Shown here piece after piece: positions 25,325-35,067 of a stretch of 64,000 bases of DNA. The notes under the pieces are model-generated. The model ran no database searches. It had not been told where the DNA came from and was given only the letters and a program-made list of their open reading frames with translations. Position numbers and translations under genes: made by a program. The DNA comes from Ideonella livida (GTDB taxonomy: Bacteria > Pseudomonadota > Gammaproteobacteria > Burkholderiales > Burkholderiaceae_C): the NCBI RefSeq assembly GCF_010499455.1, contig NZ_JAAGOH010000001.1:1-64000 (forward strand). Reading direction: 5' to 3'. Numbering within the stretch: the first letter of the stretch is position 1; each line of letters opens with the position of its first letter.

Positions 25325-26290
25325 TCAGCCCCCCCGCGCCAGCGCCCGCAGCAACAGCTCGACCCGGGCCTTGGCCGGGGTGAGCGGGCCCGCCGAAGGC
25401 AGGGCCGAAGCCGGCTCGCCCACCACGCTGCCGCCCTGGCAGCGGCTGGCGCGCAGCACGCCCAGGCCACGGCCAAGCAGCCGCCGCCCCAGGTCTTCCA
25501 GCACTTGGTGCACAGTGCCGTTGCCAGTGCCCTCAATCACCACCCCCCGAACGTCGGCTGCCGTCAGCGCCGCCTCCAGGGCAGCCGCCCAGGCCGCGGA
25601 GCAGCCGGCGTGGCTGGGCAGCACCACCACCTCAGGCCAGGTGGAGGTGTCGACCGGCAGGCAGTCTAGGCCCAGCGCGGCCCCGGCCGGAGGCCAGCCC
25701 GCCAAGGGCAGCACCTGCCCTTCTTCGACCCGAGCCCACCAGGGCTGATCACCCGAGCCGAACGCATCCATCCGGTAAGGCTGCAGCTTGCGCACCCCCA
25801 GGGCACCATGCACCACGCCGGCCATCACCGCCATCACCCCACGCGCACCCGGCCAGGCCGCCAGCGTCACCGCATCCAACAGATTCTGCGGGCCGTCGGC
25901 CAGCAAGGCCGTGGCCGGTCGCATTGCTGCGGTGAGCACCACCGGCTTGCCGGGGGCCAGCACCCGGTGCAGGAACCAGGCCGTCTCCTCCAGGGTGTCG
26001 GTGCCGTGGGTGACCACCACCCCCGCCACCTCCGGCCGCGCCAGGTGGTAGGCCACCCGCCGCGCCAGGGCCCCCCAGGTGGCATGGTCCATGTCCTTGC
26101 TGTCGAGCTGCGCAACCTGCTCGGCCTGCAGGTCACGCCCAGCCAAACCGGGCACAGCCGCCACCAGGTCCTGCACGCCCACCTGGCCCGCCGTATAGCC
26201 CACGTTGTCACCCGCCACCGCCGACCGGCCGGCCATGGTGCCGCCCGTGCCCAGGATCACCACCTGGCCGGAATTCTTTTGCATTTGCAT
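25325..26290 (-). CDS. L-asparaginase
   Basis: This 321-residue protein belongs to the AnsA/AnsB asparaginase family, hydrolysing L-asparagine to aspartate and ammonia. Catalytic Thr motifs are GTGGTMAGRS near the N-terminus and VVTHGTDTLEETAWF. The substrate-binding Ser-Lys region is QLDSKDMDHATW. No signal peptide is visible, so the enzyme is probably cytoplasmic. Two in-frame ATGs start the gene (26290 and 26284). A LexA-like box lies only five bases before the first, and a TATTTT -10-like hexamer inside that box would give a very short leader. It is divergent from lexA. Confidence 0.9.
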   Translation of the reverse strand: MQMQKNSGQVVILGTGGTMAGRSAVAGDNVGYTAGQVGVQDLVAAVPGLAGRDLQAEQVAQLDSKDMDHATWGALARRVAYHLARPEVAGVVVTHGTDTLEETAWFLHRVLAPGKPVVLTAAMRPATALLADGPQNLLDAVTLAAWPGARGVMAVMAGVVHGALGVRKLQPYRMDAFGSGDQPWWARVEEGQVLPLAGWPPAGAALGLDCLPVDTSTWPEVVVLPSHAGCSAAWAAALEAALTAADVRGVVIEGTGNGTVHQVLEDLGRRLLGRGLGVLRASRCQGGSVVGEPASALPSAGPLTPAKARVELLLRALARGG

Positions 26291-26295
26291 GGGGT

Positions 26296-26330
26296 CTGGA
26301 TAAAAATACAGTAACTGGATAAACCTTCAG
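26296..26330. promoter_or_regulatory. Two tandem LexA (SOS) boxes between asparaginase and lexA
   Basis: Box 1 (26296-26311) reads CTGGATAAAAATACAG and box 2 (26315-26330) reads CTGGATAAACCTTCAG. Both have the CTG-N10-CAG frame of the gammaproteobacterial/betaproteobacterial LexA site and are spaced 19 bp start to start. Box 1 is the better match to CTGTATATATATACAG. A TTGCAT (26279-26284) with TAAAAA 16 bp later would be the lexA promoter, with box 1 over its -10. Box 2 ends five bases before the lexA ATG. Confidence 0.85.
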
Positions 26331-26335
26331 CCCGC

Positions 26336-27013
26336 ATGACCGAAAGCCCCAAACTCACCGCCCGCCAGCAGCAGATCCTGGATCTGGTGCAAAGCACCAT
26401 TGAGCGGACTGGCGCACCGCCCACCCGGGCCGAGATCGCCGCGGAACTGGGCTTCAGGTCGCCCAATGCCGCCGAGGAGCATCTTCAAGCCCTGGCCCGC
26501 AAGGGGGTCATCGAACTGGTCGGCGGCACCTCGCGGGGCATCCGGTTGCAGGGGGCCACTTTAAAGGCCCTCAACGAGACCCGGGGCCGGCAGTTCCCCC
26601 TGTCCCTGCCGGGCACCCAGGCGCTGGCCCTGCCCCTGGTGGGCCGGGTGGCCGCGGGGCACCCCATCCTGGCGCAGGAGAACATCGACGCCACCTACCA
26701 GGTGGAGGCCACGCTGTTTCCGCGCCGGCCCGACTACCTGCTGCGGGTCAAAGGCATGAGCATGCGCGATGCCGGCATCGTCGACGGCGACCTGCTGGCC
26801 GTGCAGCGCACGGCCGAGGCACGCAACGGCCAGATCGTGGTCGCACGCCTGGACGACGAGGTCACCGTCAAACGCCTGCAGCGCACCCGCCACGGGGTGG
26901 AACTGCTGCCTGAGAACCCGGATTTCCAGCCCATCGTGGTGCCCACTTCGCACCCCGAGTTCCACATTGAGGGCGTGGCGGTGGGCCTGCTGCGCCAGAA
27001 CATGCTGATCTGA
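26336..27013 (+). CDS. lexA: SOS repressor LexA
   Basis: This 225-residue repressor switches off DNA-damage genes until RecA filaments stimulate its self-cleavage. The N-terminal winged helix includes [20 protein letters not shown] and the recognition segment [20 protein letters not shown]. The cleavage bond is A107-G108 in GRVAAGHP. The protease domain has catalytic S142 in [10 protein letters not shown] and K179 in [10 protein letters not shown]. Length is at the longer end for the family owing to a longer linker. The two boxes upstream indicate autorepression. Confidence 0.97.
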
Positions 27014-27074
27014 GCCGGACGGCGCCCGGGCCTGCCAGCGCCCCAACCGCAGCGCAACGCGAGCGGGGTGGCCC

Positions 27075-28367
27075 TCAGCCCGGCTGCAGTCGGTCGCGCC
27101 GGCGCAATGCCGGAAACAGCCGGCACCAGGCCGCCACCACCGCCAGCGTGCCCACCCCGCCCAGCACGACGGAGCCCACGGGACCCAGCCAGGCGGCGGT
27201 GAGGCCGGACTCGAACTCTCCGAGCTGATTGCTGGCGCCGATGAACACCGAGTTGACCGCCGCCACCCGGCCGCGCATCTCGTCCGGTGTCTCCAGCTGC
27301 ACCAGCGATTGGCGGATCACCACGCTGACCATGTCGGCGCCGCCCGCCACCATCAGCGACACAAAGGCGGCCACCAAGCTGGTGGAGGCCGCAAAACCCA
27401 GGGTGGCCAGGCCATAGACCGCCACCCCAGCCAACAGCACCACACCGGCGCGGCGCTGCAAAGGGCGACGCGCCAGCCACAAACCCACGCCCACCGCGCC
27501 CAGGGCGGGCGCGGCGCGCAACAGGCCCAGTCCCTCGGGCCCGGTATGCAGGATGTCGCGGGCGAAGATGGGCAGCAGCGCGGTGGCGCCGCCCAGCAGC
27601 ACGGCAAACAGGTCCAGCGAGACGGCGCCCAGCAACACGGGGCGCTGGGCAATGAAACGCAGGCCCGCGGTCAGCCCCGTCCACCCTTCGGCAGGCCGGA
27701 CCGCCGGGCGGGCGCGGTGGCGGATGCGGCTGACGCCCCAGAGGGCGGCGCACAAAGCCGCGGCAGCCAGGCCATGCACCAAGCCGCCACCCCAGGCCAG
27801 GCCGGCGGCCGGGTCCGTGTGGCCGGCCAACCCCGCCAGCGTCGGGCCCAGGGCATAGAGCCCCCCGCCCACCGCCGGGCCCAGCACCGTGGCGGCCTGC
27901 ATGGTGGAGCTGCTGGCTGCCACGGCACGCGGCAGGACCGCGGCCGGCACCAAGGAGGGCAGCAGCGCCTGCAACGCCGGCATTTGCAGCGCACGGGCAC
28001 AGCCCAGCAGCACCGACACGGACCAGATCGCTCCGGCCCCCAGCCAGCCACCGGTGCTGGCCACCGCCAGCCACAGGGCGGCCAGGGCCTGCAACCCCAG
28101 GCTGATACCCAGGGCCAGACGCCGGTCATGGCGGTCCACCCACTGTCCAGCCGGCAGGGTGAGCAGCAGGGCGGGCAGGAACTGGGCCAGGCCCACCAGG
28201 CCCAGGTCCCAGGCGCTGCGGGTGAGCTCATACATTTGCCAGCCCAGGGCGACCATCAGCATCTGGTTGGCTGTGGTGCCTGCCACGCGGGCCAGCAGCA
28301 ATTGGCGGAAATCGTTCAGGTCGCGCAGGCGCAAGGACGGCGCGTCATCGGGCATCGGATCACTCAT
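27075..28367 (-). CDS. MFS transporter (DHA3/enterobactin-exporter-like)
   Basis: This 430-residue inner-membrane protein has about eleven or twelve hydrophobic segments. The MFS loop motif is present as GQWVDRHDRRLALGISL. The start (FRQLLLARVAGTTANQMLMV) and the segment SVVIRQSLVQLETPDEMRGR resemble the MFS_3 exporters of the EntS type. No siderophore or antibiotic genes are nearby, so the substrate is open. Its start lies 28 bp after the stop of the kinase-HDOD-GAF gene on the same strand, so co-transcription is plausible. Confidence 0.87.
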   Translation of the reverse strand: MSDPMPDDAPSLRLRDLNDFRQLLLARVAGTTANQMLMVALGWQMYELTRSAWDLGLVGLAQFLPALLLTLPAGQWVDRHDRRLALGISLGLQALAALWLAVASTGGWLGAGAIWSVSVLLGCARALQMPALQALLPSLVPAAVLPRAVAASSSTMQAATVLGPAVGGGLYALGPTLAGLAGHTDPAAGLAWGGGLVHGLAAAALCAALWGVSRIRHRARPAVRPAEGWTGLTAGLRFIAQRPVLLGAVSLDLFAVLLGGATALLPIFARDILHTGPEGLGLLRAAPALGAVGVGLWLARRPLQRRAGVVLLAGVAVYGLATLGFAASTSLVAAFVSLMVAGGADMVSVVIRQSLVQLETPDEMRGRVAAVNSVFIGASNQLGEFESGLTAAWLGPVGSVVLGGVGTLAVVAAWCRLFPALRRRDRLQPG

Positions 28368-28395
28368 CCGGCCCGAGCTTACGCGAGGCCGGCGC

Positions 28396-30906
28396 TCAGA
28401 CCGCCGTCTTGAAGGCCATCACGGCCTGGTTGCGCAGGGTCTTGAGCAGGTGCAGGTGGTTCTCGGCCAGCAGCAGGGGCTGGTCATGCTCGGCATAGAA
28501 GAGGGCAAAGGGCCGGGACTTGAGCATCAGGGGCAGCAGCAACAGGCCACGGGGTGCATCGGCCTGAGGCCACCAAGGCGGCAGGCGCCCACCGCCTGCG
28601 ACCAGGCTGTGCAGATCCTCCACCACCGTGTCCACGCCCTGCAGGCAGGCGTGGCTGAACAGGTCTGCGGGCTGGCCCAGGTCCACGTGGATACGCTGCT
28701 GCAGGCCGTCGCCACCGGCGCCCACATTGCTGCGCCCCAGCAGCTGGCCGCTGCGGGGGTCGCGAAGGCAGAACACGACCCGATCCAATCCCAGCCCCTG
28801 GTGCATGGTGTGCAGGATGAGCCCCAGCACCTCGTTGAGCTTGAAGCGGTCGGCAGACAGGGCAGTGGTCACCTCGACGATGCCGTGGTGCAGGCGCGCC
28901 AGGTCGTGCCCGCCAGCCAGTGCCGTGGACGTCATGGACGTCATGGGCGTTGCGGGCGCGGCGGACACCGGTCGCGGCAGACGCAGGGTCGGGGCGTCGG
29001 CCTCGGCGGCCGCCACCAGCCCCGCGCCGGCCACTGCAGTCCGCGGGCCGGTGACGTCGCCCCCCCGGGAACCGGTCGCGATGCGCCCTGCCCCGCCGGT
29101 GGCGGTGGTTCCCGCCGGCTTGGCAGGCCGAACCGGGGCCGTGGCGGCACCGCCCTCGGTGGGCAGCTTGAGCACCCGGCTCAACTCCGCATGGTGGGTG
29201 CGGGAGACCTGCAGGGCATCCCGCAGGTCTTCGGCCCCCAGGCCCAGCACGGCCAGGTAGGGGCTGCCCATCTGGAGCAGGCGCTCGGTATCGGACTGGC
29301 GCCCCTGCAACACCACCTGGCGCGCCAACTCCGACGCGGCACGGATGCGCCAGCGCATGGTCTCCGCCGGCGCCTCCAGGCGGCGGGTCGGCGGGTCGCC
29401 TTGGGGGCGGGAGAATGCATGGCGCAGGCCCTCGGGCAGCCCCCAGGAGCTGGTGACGGCCTGTCCGAGCTCATCCAGGCTGATGCCCAGCACGTCGCGC
29501 TCGATGTCCGGGGCGGGTTCGCCCAATGCCCCCGCACCACGCATCTCCAGGGCCAGCGCCTCCTGGGGCAGGTAGTAGCTCACCAGCATGCCACCCAGAT
29601 GCGACAGCATGCCGGCCAGGAAGGCTTCCTCGCGCTCACGTGCTCCGGGCGTGAGCTGGTCGGTGAGCACCGCTGTCAGCAACGCCTGGGCAAAGAGCTG
29701 GCGCATGCGTTGCGCCTGGTCCTGGTCGCCCATGTGCTCCAGCAGCAGCAGGGACAACGCCATGTTGCGGATGCCCGCAAAGCCGATGAGGGCCGCAGCC
29801 CGGGTCACGGTGCTGACCTCACCCCGTGCGCCGAAGCGGAAGTGCGCAGTGTTGGCCATGCGCAGCAGCTTCTGGGTCAGGGCCACGTCCTTGAGCACTT
29901 CAGCGGCCAGGCTCTGCAAGCTTTCCTTGTCCGACGTTGTGATGTGCTGGATGCGCACAATGGCGTCGGAAAGGGCAGGAAAGTCGCCCGCGTGGCGGAT
30001 GCGCCGCAACAGGAAGTCCACCGTGCCATGGGCATGGGGGGCGGCTGGCGCCGGCTGACGCCAGGTCCGCAGCGCCTGGCAGAGGCTTGCGGCATCGGGC
30101 CAGCGGTCCTCAGGGCGGCGTGCCACCGCGCGCAGCACCAGGCCGCGCAGCCGGTCGTCCACCGCCGGCGCGCCCTCCGGCCAGCCGATGTCCTCCCCCT
30201 GAACCCGCTGGAGGTAGCGCTGCGGGTCGCTCTCCTGAAGCAGCGCGCGTCCGGTGAGCAACCGCCCCAGCAGCATGCCGGCGGCGAACACGTCCATGGC
30301 GGCACTGGGCGCCTGGCCGGCGGCAGCCTCCGGGGAGAGGTAGCCGGCCGTGCCCATGACCTCACCGGTGCGGTGGTCACGACCCAGCCGCGCGGCAATG
30401 CCGAAGTCCATGACCCGACAGCGTCCGTCCTGACCCAGCAGGACATTGGAAGGCTTGAGGTCGCGATGGACCACCCCGGCGGCATGGGCCGCTTCCAAGG
30501 CTTCCAGCAGGGCGATGAGCAGGTCCACCGCCTCGGCCGCCGGCCAGCACGGCTGGCTGCGCAGCCGCTCGGCCAAGGTCTGGCCCCGCACCAGCTCCAT
30601 CACCATCACCGTGCGCTGCTGTTCCGGCGCAGCGGGATCAGGGGTCTGGAAGGCTTCATGCACGGTGACGATGCCCGGGTGGCTGACGGCGCCCATGACC
30701 CGCGCCTCGTCCAGCCACAGCGCCGCCGTCTGTTCGTCCTCGTCTTGGAGGATCTTGAGCGCGACCTCGCGCTCCAGGGTCGGGTCCCAGGCCGACCACA
30801 CCACCGCCTGGGCCCCGCGGCCCAGGACCTGCCGCAGTTCAAAACGCCCCACCCGATGGCCCGAACGGGGGACCGCGGCAGCCGGTGCAGCTCGCAGACT
30901 CAGCAT
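28396..30906 (-). CDS. Ser/Thr protein kinase fused to HDOD and GAF domains
   Basis: This 836-residue protein has three modules. Residues about 20-280 are a complete Hanks-type kinase: glycine loop VLGRGAQAVVW (G29, G31), VALK Lys51, catalytic loop VVHRDLKPSNVLL with D149 and N154, and DFG at 167-169. Residues about 300-500 are an HDOD domain, a metal-less HD-like signalling fold (LKDVALTQKLLRMANTAHFR, then HLGGMLVSYYLPQEALALEM). A Gly/Ala/Thr/Arg-rich linker leads to a C-terminal GAF-like sensor (about 680-836, VVFCLRDPRSGQLLGRSNVG). No membrane segment is seen, so it is cytoplasmic. GAGGAG precedes the ATG. It follows the pseudokinase-HDOD gene by 28 bp. Ligand and targets are unknown. Confidence 0.9.
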   Translation of the reverse strand: MLSLRAAPAAAVPRSGHRVGRFELRQVLGRGAQAVVWSAWDPTLEREVALKILQDEDEQTAALWLDEARVMGAVSHPGIVTVHEAFQTPDPAAPEQQRTVMVMELVRGQTLAERLRSQPCWPAAEAVDLLIALLEALEAAHAAGVVHRDLKPSNVLLGQDGRCRVMDFGIAARLGRDHRTGEVMGTAGYLSPEAAAGQAPSAAMDVFAAGMLLGRLLTGRALLQESDPQRYLQRVQGEDIGWPEGAPAVDDRLRGLVLRAVARRPEDRWPDAASLCQALRTWRQPAPAAPHAHGTVDFLLRRIRHAGDFPALSDAIVRIQHITTSDKESLQSLAAEVLKDVALTQKLLRMANTAHFRFGARGEVSTVTRAAALIGFAGIRNMALSLLLLEHMGDQDQAQRMRQLFAQALLTAVLTDQLTPGAREREEAFLAGMLSHLGGMLVSYYLPQEALALEMRGAGALGEPAPDIERDVLGISLDELGQAVTSSWGLPEGLRHAFSRPQGDPPTRRLEAPAETMRWRIRAASELARQVVLQGRQSDTERLLQMGSPYLAVLGLGAEDLRDALQVSRTHHAELSRVLKLPTEGGAATAPVRPAKPAGTTATGGAGRIATGSRGGDVTGPRTAVAGAGLVAAAEADAPTLRLPRPVSAAPATPMTSMTSTALAGGHDLARLHHGIVEVTTALSADRFKLNEVLGLILHTMHQGLGLDRVVFCLRDPRSGQLLGRSNVGAGGDGLQQRIHVDLGQPADLFSHACLQGVDTVVEDLHSLVAGGGRLPPWWPQADAPRGLLLLPLMLKSRPFALFYAEHDQPLLLAENHLHLLKTLRNQAVMAFKTAV

Positions 30907-30934
30907 GGAAGACTCCTCATCCGACTTGGCGGAT

Positions 30935-32875
30935 TCATGGTGTGGCCCCCCAGCGCCCGGAGGCGGTGCGGGCCAGCCTCAGGCTGGAAGGCCCCTGAGG
31001 AAGTGGGGGACTGGCACCGGCATCGCCCGCCGAACCGCCCGCCGCTCCCCCCGGGGCGGGCGGAGCCGTCTGCTGCGCCGACCCCGCTTCGCTCGCCATG
31101 CCTCTGGGCTCGCCGCCTGCAGGCCGACCCGCCGACGCCGAACGTTCGGCCTCCACGGCCGACTTCACGGCATCCTGCATGTCGGTGCCGGTCACCCCCA
31201 GGGCGCGGGCATAGCGCTGCACCACCGCCCGCACCGCCGGCTGCACGCGCCGCGGCGGCAGCGACAGGGCGTCGATCAACTCATTGGCGCAGCAACCCGC
31301 CACACGCAGGCTGTCCAGGTCAGACTCTGGCGTGCGCACCACAGCGCGCGGCCCGAAACGGGTCATCATGTGCAGCAGGCTCTCCGGCAAGCCCCAGTGC
31401 TGGGCCACCGCCAGCCCAAGCGCCTCGACGTCCACCCCCAGCACCGCATACGCGGCGGCCTCAGCCCCCATGCCAGGCTCGCCCGCGGCCCCGGCACCTT
31501 CATCAGGCTGGGTCAGGCGCCGGATCTGCGCCGCCTCCTCGGGGAAGTGGTACTGCACCACCAGGCGACCCAGGTTCTGCATCATCGCCACCAGGGTGAC
31601 CACCTCCGGGTCATAGCCCGCGGGCGCCAAGGCCACGGCCACCCGGGCCGCGCGCTGCACCCGCCGGATGAGCAGCATCATCTCGCGCGCCGCCTCTGCC
31701 GACAGCGGCCCCGGCCAGGGCCGCAGCGACAACGCGGCTTGACGCACCCCGTCCAAACCCACCATGGCAATGGCCCGGCGCAGCATCAGCACAGGGTCGT
31801 GCTCCCCCGCCCGGGCCTGGCGCGCCGCCAGGCCATTGACCTGCCGCAGCAACTCAAAACTCAGGGCCATGTCGCCCAGCACCAGGCTGGCGAGTTCGCC
31901 GGTTCGGCAGCGCTCCATCAAGGCCAGGCGCGCCACCTGGTCGGCCCCGCCCGGCATGGCCGGCAGCACGCCCACGCTGCGCAGTCGGTCGAGCACCAGC
32001 GCCAGGGGCCCGCCCTCCTGTCCGGCCACGGTCTTGAGCCAGCCCTCCAATGCCCGCTGCAGGGTGCGGGCGTTGCGGTAGCGCTGGCGCTCCTGGCGGT
32101 CGGTGGCGCGGTTGACGATGGCCCGCAAGGGGTCAGGCACAGCCCTGGGCACTGTCCAGGGCAGGCGCACGATGTCATTGCCCGCCGGCGGCATCCGGGC
32201 AATCACCCGCCCGGTGTCGGGTTCCTCCAGGGCAGGCTGCGCCGCCAGGGCCTGGTGCATCACCAACCCCAGCCCCAGCACGTCCGTGAGGGCTGCCCGG
32301 CGCACCGCTTGCAGCTCCTCCATCGCCCCCTGGCGGTGCCCGGGCCGCCAGCGGCCCGCGACCTCCAGGCCCAGAAGCGCTCCATGGCCTCCGTCGCGGC
32401 ACAGCAACATCCATGGCTGCACATCATGGTGCGCCACTCCCGCCTCATGGGCAAAGGCCAGCGCCTGCGCGGCGTGTGCCGCCCAGCGGGCCAAGTCCTG
32501 GGGATCCAGACCCTGCCGGCTGAACACCTCAGACCAGGTGACCCAAGGTCCGCGGTCGTACAGCACATAGGGACGCTGCTGGAAAGCGGCCGCCTCCACC
32601 ACCGGCAACAGGGCAGGATGGGAAAGGCGCGCCGCCCGCCGCACCGTCTGCAGCCACAGCGCCAGCTCATCCTCCGGCAAGGGCTCGCGCGGCAACGCCA
32701 GCAGACCCTCCTGCCCGGAGCGGTCGTCGATGACCAGCCAGACCATGGTGCGCTCGCTCTTGCCCAGCAGCCGCAGCAACTGAAAGCGGCTGAAGCGTCG
32801 GACCGCGCGCCCAGGCATGACCGCCACGGAGGCGGCCGTGGCCGAAGACGGGGGGCGGGACGGCTGATCAGGCAT
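30935..32875 (-). CDS. Pseudokinase-HDOD protein
   Basis: This 646-residue paralogue of the next gene lacks the GAF part. The kinase-like region (about 28-310) keeps the fold but has lost the chemistry. The glycine loop is LLGKSERTMVW, the VAIK lysine is missing (LLALPR, 58-63), the catalytic loop reads AHHDVQPWMLL (D151 kept, Asn replaced by M156), and the DFG Asp is gone (LLGLEVAGR, about 167-175). The HDOD domain follows (about 330-530, LGDMALSFELLRQVNGLAAR, then MMQNLGRLVVQYHFPEEAAQ). The C-terminus is a disordered Gly/Ala/Pro tail. ATG 32875 was preferred over an upstream TTG. A regulator or scaffold for the active kinase is the natural inference. Confidence 0.85.
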   Translation of the reverse strand: MPDQPSRPPSSATAASVAVMPGRAVRRFSRFQLLRLLGKSERTMVWLVIDDRSGQEGLLALPREPLPEDELALWLQTVRRAARLSHPALLPVVEAAAFQQRPYVLYDRGPWVTWSEVFSRQGLDPQDLARWAAHAAQALAFAHEAGVAHHDVQPWMLLCRDGGHGALLGLEVAGRWRPGHRQGAMEELQAVRRAALTDVLGLGLVMHQALAAQPALEEPDTGRVIARMPPAGNDIVRLPWTVPRAVPDPLRAIVNRATDRQERQRYRNARTLQRALEGWLKTVAGQEGGPLALVLDRLRSVGVLPAMPGGADQVARLALMERCRTGELASLVLGDMALSFELLRQVNGLAARQARAGEHDPVLMLRRAIAMVGLDGVRQAALSLRPWPGPLSAEAAREMMLLIRRVQRAARVAVALAPAGYDPEVVTLVAMMQNLGRLVVQYHFPEEAAQIRRLTQPDEGAGAAGEPGMGAEAAAYAVLGVDVEALGLAVAQHWGLPESLLHMMTRFGPRAVVRTPESDLDSLRVAGCCANELIDALSLPPRRVQPAVRAVVQRYARALGVTGTDMQDAVKSAVEAERSASAGRPAGGEPRGMASEAGSAQQTAPPAPGGAAGGSAGDAGASPPLPQGPSSLRLARTASGRWGATP

Positions 32876-33163
32876 GGTGGGGCGAGGCTGTGGCGTGATT
32901 GCACCTGCCGGCGCCCCTGAGGACTCCGGCAATCAGGGGCGGGATGACCTGCCATCTCCCGCTCCACCCAGGCGACCGGGGCGCGGTCCGGTCTGGCACT
33001 CCCGCCTCTGCAGCACGCCGGCGATGTCTGAGCCTTTATGTCAGAATTCCGAACAAGTCTTTCCCCGCAATTCGCGGTCCGGCAGACCCTCTCCGCCACT
33101 TCCTTCCTGGAGCGAGCGGTCCCCCGTCGCCCGATGCCCTGTGTCGACGCAACAGGAACCCCC

Positions 33164-33493
33164 ATGAGCAGCGAACTGATCAAGCATGTTTCCGACGCCT
33201 CCTTCGAGGCCGATGTCCTGAACGCCGACAAGCCCGTGCTGGTCGATTACTGGGCCGAGTGGTGCGGTCCTTGCAAACAGATCGCCCCGATCCTCGATGA
33301 CGCGGCCCAGGAGTTCGATGGCCGACTGCAGATCGCCAAAATGAACGTGGATGAGAACCGCGCCGTGCCGGCCAAGTTCGGCATCCGCGGCATCCCCACG
33401 CTGATGCTGTTCAAGGGTGGTCAATTGGCCGCCACCAAGGTGGGCGCCCTGTCCAAGGCGCAACTGGCCCAGTTCATCGAAGCTCACCTATAA
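33164..33493 (+). CDS. trxA: Thioredoxin 1
   Basis: This 109-residue cytoplasmic dithiol reductant has the active site WCGPC (C34, C37), buried D28 in VLVDYWAEW, and the cis-Pro loop [14 protein letters not shown]. Length and end ([11 protein letters not shown]) match canonical TrxA. ATG 33164 follows AGGA. An upstream in-frame extension is untypical and was discarded. It is divergent from the pseudokinase gene (288-bp gap, no clear promoter recognised) and precedes rho, a common order in betaproteobacteria. Confidence 0.97.
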
Positions 33494-33494
33494 T
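33489..33494 (+). promoter_or_regulatory. -10 hexamer of the likely rho promoter
   Basis: A perfect TATAAT spans the end of trxA; the trxA stop codon TAA (33491-33493) lies inside it. No good -35 is visible at the usual distance, so an activator or a relaxed -35 may be used. It would give rho a leader of about 300 nt. Confidence 0.55.
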
Positions 33495-33801
33495 CGCGGC
33501 TTGACGCCGTCAGGCAGCGGCGCCCGCCGCCGCCGACCCTGCAGATCGTTTTCTGCAGGCGTCCCGCCCGGCCCCGCCGGAGCCCTCGCCTTCAGAGCGT
33601 GCTCCGGTTTCCTGAACAGGCCGCGGCGCAGATCCCCAAGAGTCAATTCCAGGCTGCAGCAGCCGGTCCCTCCGACCGGTCCCAGGGCGGCTCGAGCGCG
33701 TGGTCCTGCGGTCCTCGTGCGCTGCGGCGCGCGATGTCCGTCGGTCTGCGGTGCTCCGGCAGGGGCAGCCCACACCGTGTGCCATCCGAGGATCCATCCC
33801 G
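33495..33801 (+). other. Long untranslated leader of rho
   Basis: This 307-bp stretch has no credible gene. It is C-rich and G-poor in its first half, contains a small hairpin (CCTGCAG, 33538-33544, with CTGCAGG, 33553-33559), and ends with GAGG 13 bases before the rho ATG. In E. coli the rho leader mediates autoregulation by Rho-dependent termination, and the C-rich composition here would suit the same control (inference). Confidence 0.5.

Positions 33802-35067
<1,266 letters not shown>

Follow-up and report, generated by a model that had tools for sequence, protein, structure and literature searches.

Among the bacterial pseudokinase families described in PMC12599244, ActPs3 members are mainly actinobacterial, have all three kinase motifs degraded and often carry a transmembrane region. 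DLHK members have the HRD Asp and a loop-end Asn and are often linked to helicase/DNA2 domains, GLW members have GLW in place of HRD, DYD members have an Arg for the VAIK Lys together with a DYD motif, and CP1 members are linked to a COG3899 domain. The term HDOD does not occur in the main text of that review, which presents no HDOD-linked family. HDOD proteins have been reported in cyclic di-GMP (c-di-GMP) and motility control, and how HDOD works mechanistically is stated as not established; the HDOD domains of SadB, GsmR and HdpA are described as lacking phosphodiesterase activity, and reports on SadB describe c-di-GMP binding and a role in motility control (PMC6543031). EAL-HDOD proteins are treated in PMC6416229. 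Here, we analyse two adjacent genes in a 64,000-nucleotide stretch of Ideonella livida DNA (the window), encoding an 836-residue kinase-HDOD-GAF-like protein (KIN) and a 646-residue pseudokinase-HDOD protein (PSK). No report of a pseudokinase-HDOD protein paired with a kinase was found among the listed titles and abstract starts of open-licence papers. The reading we favour, to which as a whole we give about even odds (roughly 50%), is that PSK serves as a scaffold or sensor without phosphotransfer, with KIN as its frequent but dispensable partner.

Domain architecture and fold

An earlier note on this DNA, made from its letters alone, had described two open reading frames with a common kinase plus HDOD layout, and both the frames and the layout were confirmed (Table 1). 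KIN matches the Pfam families Pkinase (4.6e-42) and HDOD (9.5e-33, 113.8 bits against a cut-off of 22.9). Its C-terminus matches GAF_2 (1.8e-5, 25.4 bits; Pfam cut-off 28.6) and GAF (19.2 bits; cut-off 22.4), and the GAF cut-off is passed by the KIN-type relatives L098, L105 and L106. PSK exceeds the same HDOD cut-off (1.3e-16, 61.2 bits), and its Pkinase match (E 0.0013, 18.6 bits) lies below the cut-off of 31.7. Across 49 aligned PSKs, HDOD was matched at E<=0.01 by all 49 and Pkinase by 47, and their Pfam content consists of HDOD, two kinase families and one LRV_2 match.

A kinase-related fold for PSK is supported by sequence matches to PknB (best E 3.6e-7, compared with 2.3e-36 for KIN), by the Pfam matches of its relatives and by its AlphaFold2 model (mean predicted local distance difference test, pLDDT, 87.7; predicted TM-score, pTM, 0.83). 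In the PDB, this model matches PknB, PknA and the pseudokinase domain of Rv3910 (MviN). The KIN model is weaker overall (pTM 0.52, with HDOD residues 309-313 and 341-365 below pLDDT 50), and its GAF-like region, residues 671-836, is modelled at pLDDT ~88-98. The top 19-residue hydrophobicity, 1.67 in PSK and 1.79 in KIN, stays below the 2.14 of the MFS protein used as a control, and KIN is on this measure judged free of a clear transmembrane segment. KIN shares its catalytic motifs and a strong match with the PknB/Stk1-type Ser/Thr kinases, which PSK matches weakly. PknB has a transmembrane segment and PASTA domains; unlike it, KIN carries HDOD and GAF-like domains and no clear transmembrane segment.

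SadB, GsmR and HdpA share the HDOD domain with PSK and KIN within other architectures (YbaK-like plus HDOD in SadB). We looked in the HDOD alignment for the His-Asp pair of HD phosphohydrolase and HD-GYP proteins. The column that we take to be their HD doublet reads mostly QN in both PSK and KIN, and no HD was seen in the residue classes covering 119 of 124 PSKs and 109 of 121 KINs.

Catalytic residues of the two kinase domains

Motifs were counted in a non-redundant set, with near-copies removed, of 124 PSKs and 121 KINs (103 paired with a PSK and 18 unpaired); the split PSKs at L075 and L085 and two gene fragments, L068_PSK2 and L075_KIN2, did not enter the counts. The KIN of the window has the glycine loop, K51, HRD (147-149) and DFG (167-169) that had been read from its sequence. 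All 103 paired KINs, that of the window included, keep K51, the alpha-C Glu (E67), H147, R148, D149, the loop Lys and Asn (K151 and N154), D167, F168, G169 and the Pro-Glu of APE (P192 and E193). Among the 18 KIN-type loci without a PSK, 15 retain the Lys and both Asp, the exceptions being L098, L105 and L106.

In the PSK of the window, the alignment bears out the retention of D151 and the loss of the VAIK Lys (A60), the loop Asn (M156) and DFG (G169-L170-E171). The glycine loop, which the earlier note had also given as lost, is degraded in part: its first Gly persists (G38, with Gly at this position in 108 of the 124 PSKs), its second is replaced (S40), and a further position, where KIN has Ala, is T43. 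Homologues with ATP-binding and DFG residues, which would have gone against that note, were not found: neither the VAIK Lys nor the DFG Asp is present in any of the 124 PSKs, and the loop Asn occurs in four. The VAIK Lys position is occupied by Val (49), Ala (24), Thr (20), Cys (12), Met (8), Leu (5) or Ser (4) in 122 of the 124, and the DFG Asp position by Gly (107), Ala (16) or Pro (1). The alpha-F Asp, in turn, is found in 122 of 124 and the alpha-I Arg in all of them. PSK therefore qualifies as a pseudokinase by its predicted kinase fold and its loss of the VAIK Lys and DFG Asp. Judged from the aligned residues, this state is a fixed family trait, and PSK, which retains its C-lobe core, cannot use the canonical kinase mechanism.

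PSK also has constraints of its own, at positions that in KIN are either variable or hold the canonical residue: K/R39 (122 of 124), S40 (117), P62 (121), R63 (123), Q153 (114) and G169 (107). The pseudo-activation segment is poorly conserved, with a mean column identity of 0.42 versus 0.71 for the alpha-F to alpha-I region and 0.70 for HDOD. With K/R39 as a basic residue in the glycine loop, R63 standing in for the VAIK Lys and H149-x-D151-x-Q153 retained (H149 in 122 and D151 in 121), PSK might still bind nucleotide or catalyse some other reaction. POMK, with its glycine-loop lysine, and ULK4-like metal-free ATP binding, both named in PMC12599244, would be precedents by analogy. The universal loss of the DFG Asp, the presence of E171 in just 63 PSKs and the near absence of the loop Asn speak against this, and the conserved residues may be structural; we consider it unlikely. 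A bolder form, which we hold to be improbable too, is that the rebuilt pocket (K/R39, S40, P62, R63, H149-x-D151-x-Q153 and G169) serves, in the absence of a normal metal site, to bind a nucleotide or another small signal, or else allows some reaction other than that of a kinase, so that PSK would be a ligand-sensing protein driving the HDOD output and KIN an optional accessory. If that were true, this would be a bacterial kinase/pseudokinase pair with the pseudokinase as the senior partner.

Comparison with described pseudokinase families

Among the closest likenesses is the MviN (Rv3910) pseudokinase domain of M. tuberculosis, an ActPs3 member (PDB 3uqc), which like PSK has a kinase fold without the VAIK Lys or DFG. 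PSK differs from it in retaining H149 and D151, in its fusion to HDOD and in having the gene of an active sister kinase next to its own. We compared PSK with ActPs3, DLHK, GLW, DYD and CP1 by the descriptions given in PMC12599244. As far as those descriptions go, the HRD Asp in 121 of 124 PSKs separates them from ActPs3, and H149 and D151 together separate them from GLW. An Asn in only 4 of 124 and HDOD as the partner domain differ from DLHK; the mainly Val, Ala or Thr at the Lys position and the Gly, Ala or Pro at the DFG position differ from DYD; and the 49 PSKs searched with Pfam show HDOD, kinase families and one LRV_2 in place of the domain linked to CP1.

The likeness to MviN raises another explanation, in which PSK would be a phosphorylation-dependent adaptor whose C-terminal tail is phosphorylated by KIN and then recruits another protein, by analogy with the mechanism described for MviN in PMC12599244. 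Chain 3uqc_D has the top target-normalised TM-score (0.73) among the best 50 structural matches, in which it ranks 47th by E-value, and the 63-residue tail of the window PSK contains both Ser and Thr. Across the family, however, the tail is unconserved, with 0-74 residues (median 23) and at least one Ser or Thr in 111 of the 124 PSKs. We regard this adaptor model as very unlikely here, and tail phosphorylation as unlikely to be a mechanism of the family, the tail not being conserved.

Distribution of PSK and presence of KIN beside it

We searched 150 genomes of the window's GTDB family, scoring at most eight candidates per genome, so that the counts are lower bounds. PSK was matched at E<=1e-10 in 77 genomes, and a PSK-class gene was present in at least 51 (window included), 37 of which have KIN directly downstream and 14 of which do not. 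When these 14 genomes were searched whole, with all candidates scored, no other full-length kinase-HDOD-GAF protein was found; the nearest was an HDOD-GAF protein encoded by a 555-residue open frame in G033, with GAF just below the cut-off. A further 17 family genomes hold 18 KIN-type loci (L089-L106), with no PSK among the candidates scored.

The second sample comprised the best 80 of 284 relative-encoding stretches in GTDB r220 (the 80 named loci). By title, they belong to Ideonella, Rubrivivax, Aquabacterium, Aquincola, Rhizobacter, Piscinibacter, Roseateles and a Vitreoscilla assembly, the remaining titles giving only Burkholderiaceae, Burkholderiales, Betaproteobacteria or Pseudomonadota. 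KIN adjoins PSK in 71 of the 79 testable loci, counting as adjacent L157, L162 and L171, where KIN is in pieces, and not counting L170, where the contig ends. Together with the 37 of 51 PSK genomes in the family sample, this shows conserved adjacency, whose absence would have gone against the earlier note, and supports its view of a true kinase beside a pseudokinase paralogue. The pair and both motif states recur across many genomes, beyond what chance would give.

The pairing does not look obligatory. In 21 of 122 non-redundant loci, some of them in Ideonella, no KIN lies next to PSK (L162, with KIN in poor pieces, and L170 were omitted here). On a FastTree phylogeny, the presence or absence of KIN changes state 15 times, at least 10 of which are forced by well-supported branches. 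Loss of KIN is the simplest reading of these changes, the direction not being inferred from the tree.

Outside the family, we drew 300 genomes of the order and 274 of the class, each draw with a few of the family, and scored up to four candidates per genome. The relatives found there are 22-31% identical to PSK and mostly of KIN length. In 39 distinct rows from these draws (one of them, L213, of the window's family), the VAIK Lys and HRD Asp are kept in 39 and the DFG Asp in 38, and the loop Lys is absent in 14, with Ser, Asn, Thr or Arg instead. PSK was thus found in one GTDB family only, and its restriction to it is probable rather than proven because four candidates were scored per genome. 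The kinase-HDOD-GAF proteins of other families have a layout like that of KIN and, unlike PSK, keep the VAIK Lys and nearly always the DFG Asp. Some also occur as tandem genes (L223-L227), with the Lys and both Asp kept by both copies in four of five loci, and tandem pairing seems to be older or recurrent. One tandem copy of L227, which runs off its contig, has Asn for the DFG Asp.

Three KIN-type proteins (L105, L106 and, in G033, L107) have a degenerate or absent kinase domain and retain HDOD with a GAF or GAF-like domain, which suggests that HDOD-GAF is the most needed part of such proteins.

Origin of PSK and selection on it

To leave out the degenerate kinase domain, a phylogeny was reconstructed from HDOD alone for 72 chosen rows (23 PSKs, 29 KIN-type proteins of the family and 20 of other families). 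The 23 PSKs formed one clade with 100/100 bootstrap/SH-aLRT support, the bootstrap being not fully settled, and L098 was its sister (98/94). This position suggests a kinase-HDOD-GAF ancestor for PSK with later loss of GAF, a tentative ancestry because L098 is a long branch. The L098 protein itself (L098:7066-9351) bears a GAF domain and a degenerate kinase domain (83 bits, without the VAIK Lys or HRD Asp) and is possibly an early form that kept GAF. At KIN position 37 and PSK position 46, all 124 PSKs and all but one of the 103 paired KINs have Trp, whereas 38 distinct rows from other families have Tyr (34), Phe (3) or Leu (1). This fits a duplication inside the lineage. In the reading we favour, PSK arose once, probably by duplication of a kinase-HDOD-GAF protein.

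Among 18 pairs of closely related PSKs, the ratio of nonsynonymous to synonymous substitution rates (dN/dS, NG86 counting) over the kinase region runs from 0.053 to 0.376, which indicates that the pseudokinase domain is maintained by purifying selection. For comparison, the PSK HDOD region gives 0.037-0.302, and KIN, where present (15 pairs), lies in a like range. These values bear on whether PSK is a decaying, non-functional paralogue, as its lost catalytic motifs, its presence in only 51 of 150 family genomes (a lower bound) and its split state in two of 50 family-sample loci (L075 and L085) might suggest. A relic is rejected by the dN/dS values, and the conserved new signature and the single open frames in the other 48 of those loci and in 80 of 80 named loci argue in the same direction; we think decay highly improbable.

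Gene coupling and co-divergence

Among the named loci, 70 pairs were scored after KIN-type frames below 400 bits had been left out. The start of KIN overlaps the stop of PSK by 4 bp in 36 of them (20 ATGA, 13 GTGA and 3 TTGA), and 29 of the 34 non-overlapping pairs have a gap of 60 bp or less. In the window, KIN starts at 30906, preceded by AGGAG, 28 bp beyond PSK. Because the genes lie head to tail, often overlapping, wherever KIN is present, they are probably co-transcribed and, in many genomes, probably translationally coupled.

The earlier note had proposed a regulatory pair in which PSK tunes or scaffolds KIN. In its strict form, the main function of PSK would be to activate or inhibit KIN allosterically, and PSK would do nothing independently of KIN. 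The adjacency in 71 of 79 loci, the 4-bp overlaps in 36 of 70 pairs and the intact catalytic residues of 103 of 103 paired KINs speak for such a tuner, and the pairing is indeed conserved. The regulatory claim itself fares less well: 21 of 122 PSKs lack an adjacent KIN, with 15 state changes; 14 PSK genomes have no other full-length kinase-HDOD-GAF protein; and 15 of 18 loci encode an intact KIN-type protein with no adjoining PSK. We also sought an excess of PSK-KIN co-divergence over that with a neighbour gene, ARNT, and did not find it in 36 loci. The distance correlations for the kinase domains were 0.67 between PSK and KIN versus 0.78 and 0.71 with ARNT, and for the HDOD domains 0.79 versus 0.79 and 0.77. 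(L162 was left out of alignment A2, and L157, L158, L171 and L194 out of alignment A3.) We judge the tuner model rather unlikely. Given the 21 of 122 loci with no KIN next to PSK, tuning KIN is probably not the whole role of PSK.

Several observations weigh against the scaffold or sensor reading that we prefer. The missing excess of co-divergence is one of them. KIN-less PSKs (10 loci, versus 36 with KIN) diverge somewhat faster (HDOD ratio, p 0.005; kinase ratio, p 0.086; relatedness uncorrected), which fits a partial dependence on KIN and counts in favour of the tuner model, although the signal is weak and led by L086 and L081. In addition, the tree gives changes of state rather than losses and is a FastTree phylogeny with long branches, and 16 of the 36 overlaps depend on GTG or TTG starts picked by a simple rule.

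A proposed role for PSK and KIN

Under the scaffold or sensor reading, PSK would be a functional pseudokinase-HDOD protein of single origin, fixed in its present form, that acts without phosphotransfer, as a scaffold or binding sensor, through its rebuilt pocket and conserved C-lobe. PSK and KIN would most likely associate, through their kinase domains, their HDOD domains or both. KIN would probably be a conventional Ser/Thr kinase gated by its GAF-like domain. The state of PSK would pass to its HDOD output domain, and the direction of regulation, the ligand and the output are likewise conjectural. PSK is retained at loci that lack KIN, so its own job, as an adaptor, a sensor or a target of other kinases, is likely to be the persistent one, with KIN as an additional input. 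Where KIN is absent, PSK could serve other kinases. The host genome of the window offers possible partners in 12 kinase-domain (Pkinase) and 4 PP2C matches.

Among these matches, the PP2C and kinase-domain hits at G000:C21:42534-43850 lie in open frames of equal length (642 residues), perhaps a single phosphatase-kinase fusion, and the kinase-domain match at G000:C12:29250-30059 holds two internal stop codons and is possibly a pseudogene.

The family contains natural controls, namely PSK with an active sister, PSK without a sister and the sister without PSK, the first two inside Ideonella. With these, it is directly testable whether a pseudokinase acts via its paired kinase or alone, and what the HDOD domains do downstream.

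Neighbouring genes

Table 1. Positions of the genes and domains in the Ideonella livida window.
Feature	Position	Strand	Remarks
PSK gene, 646 aa	30935..32875	-	pseudokinase domain with predicted kinase fold, ~29-284; HDOD 304-505 (Pfam)
PSK C-terminal part	residues after HDOD	-	further helices up to 583; tail 584-646 of low confidence (model)
PSK catalytic-loop region, residues 148-160	32396..32434	-	H149-x-D151-x-Q153 conserved; canonical loop Lys and Asn lost
ATGA at PSK stop	30935..30938	-	its ATG is out of frame with KIN in the window
KIN gene, 836 aa	28396..30906	-	Ser/Thr kinase domain ~20-285; HDOD 310-498 (Pfam)
KIN C-terminal part		-	linker ~586-664 of low confidence; GAF-like domain 690-832
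MFS transporter gene	27075..28367	-	28 bp downstream of KIN; judged outside the unit

The gap to the MFS gene is the one given in the earlier note, which had suggested that this gene might be part of the unit. It was rejected as a member and is best seen as a local neighbour, as only nine of the 80 named loci, those of the nearest relatives, have it. Two of these nine are not named Ideonella, and L155, which is, shows no MFS match. In four loci without KIN (Ideonella oryzae, I. benzenivorans, Ideonella sp. B508-1 and Ideonella MAG2), the MFS gene directly follows PSK.

In the window (25325-35067) and its nearest relatives, the PSK-KIN pair is flanked by trxA-rho on one side and by MFS, lexA and asparaginase genes on the other; in L137, lexA and the asparaginase gene are there with no MFS match. 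In L127 (823-6926), genes for a PD-(D/E)XK nuclease and a UvrD-type helicase (AddAB-like) lie on PSK's strand between trxA and PSK, and frames similar to these two occur in 20 and 21 of the 80 loci, one example of each being named by Pfam. Together with the trxA, rho, dnaX and recR genes nearby, they were considered as a possible hint at DNA repair. After the PSK-KIN pair, dnaX-like and recR-like frames were found in 30 and 21 of the 80 loci, respectively, again with one Pfam-named example each.

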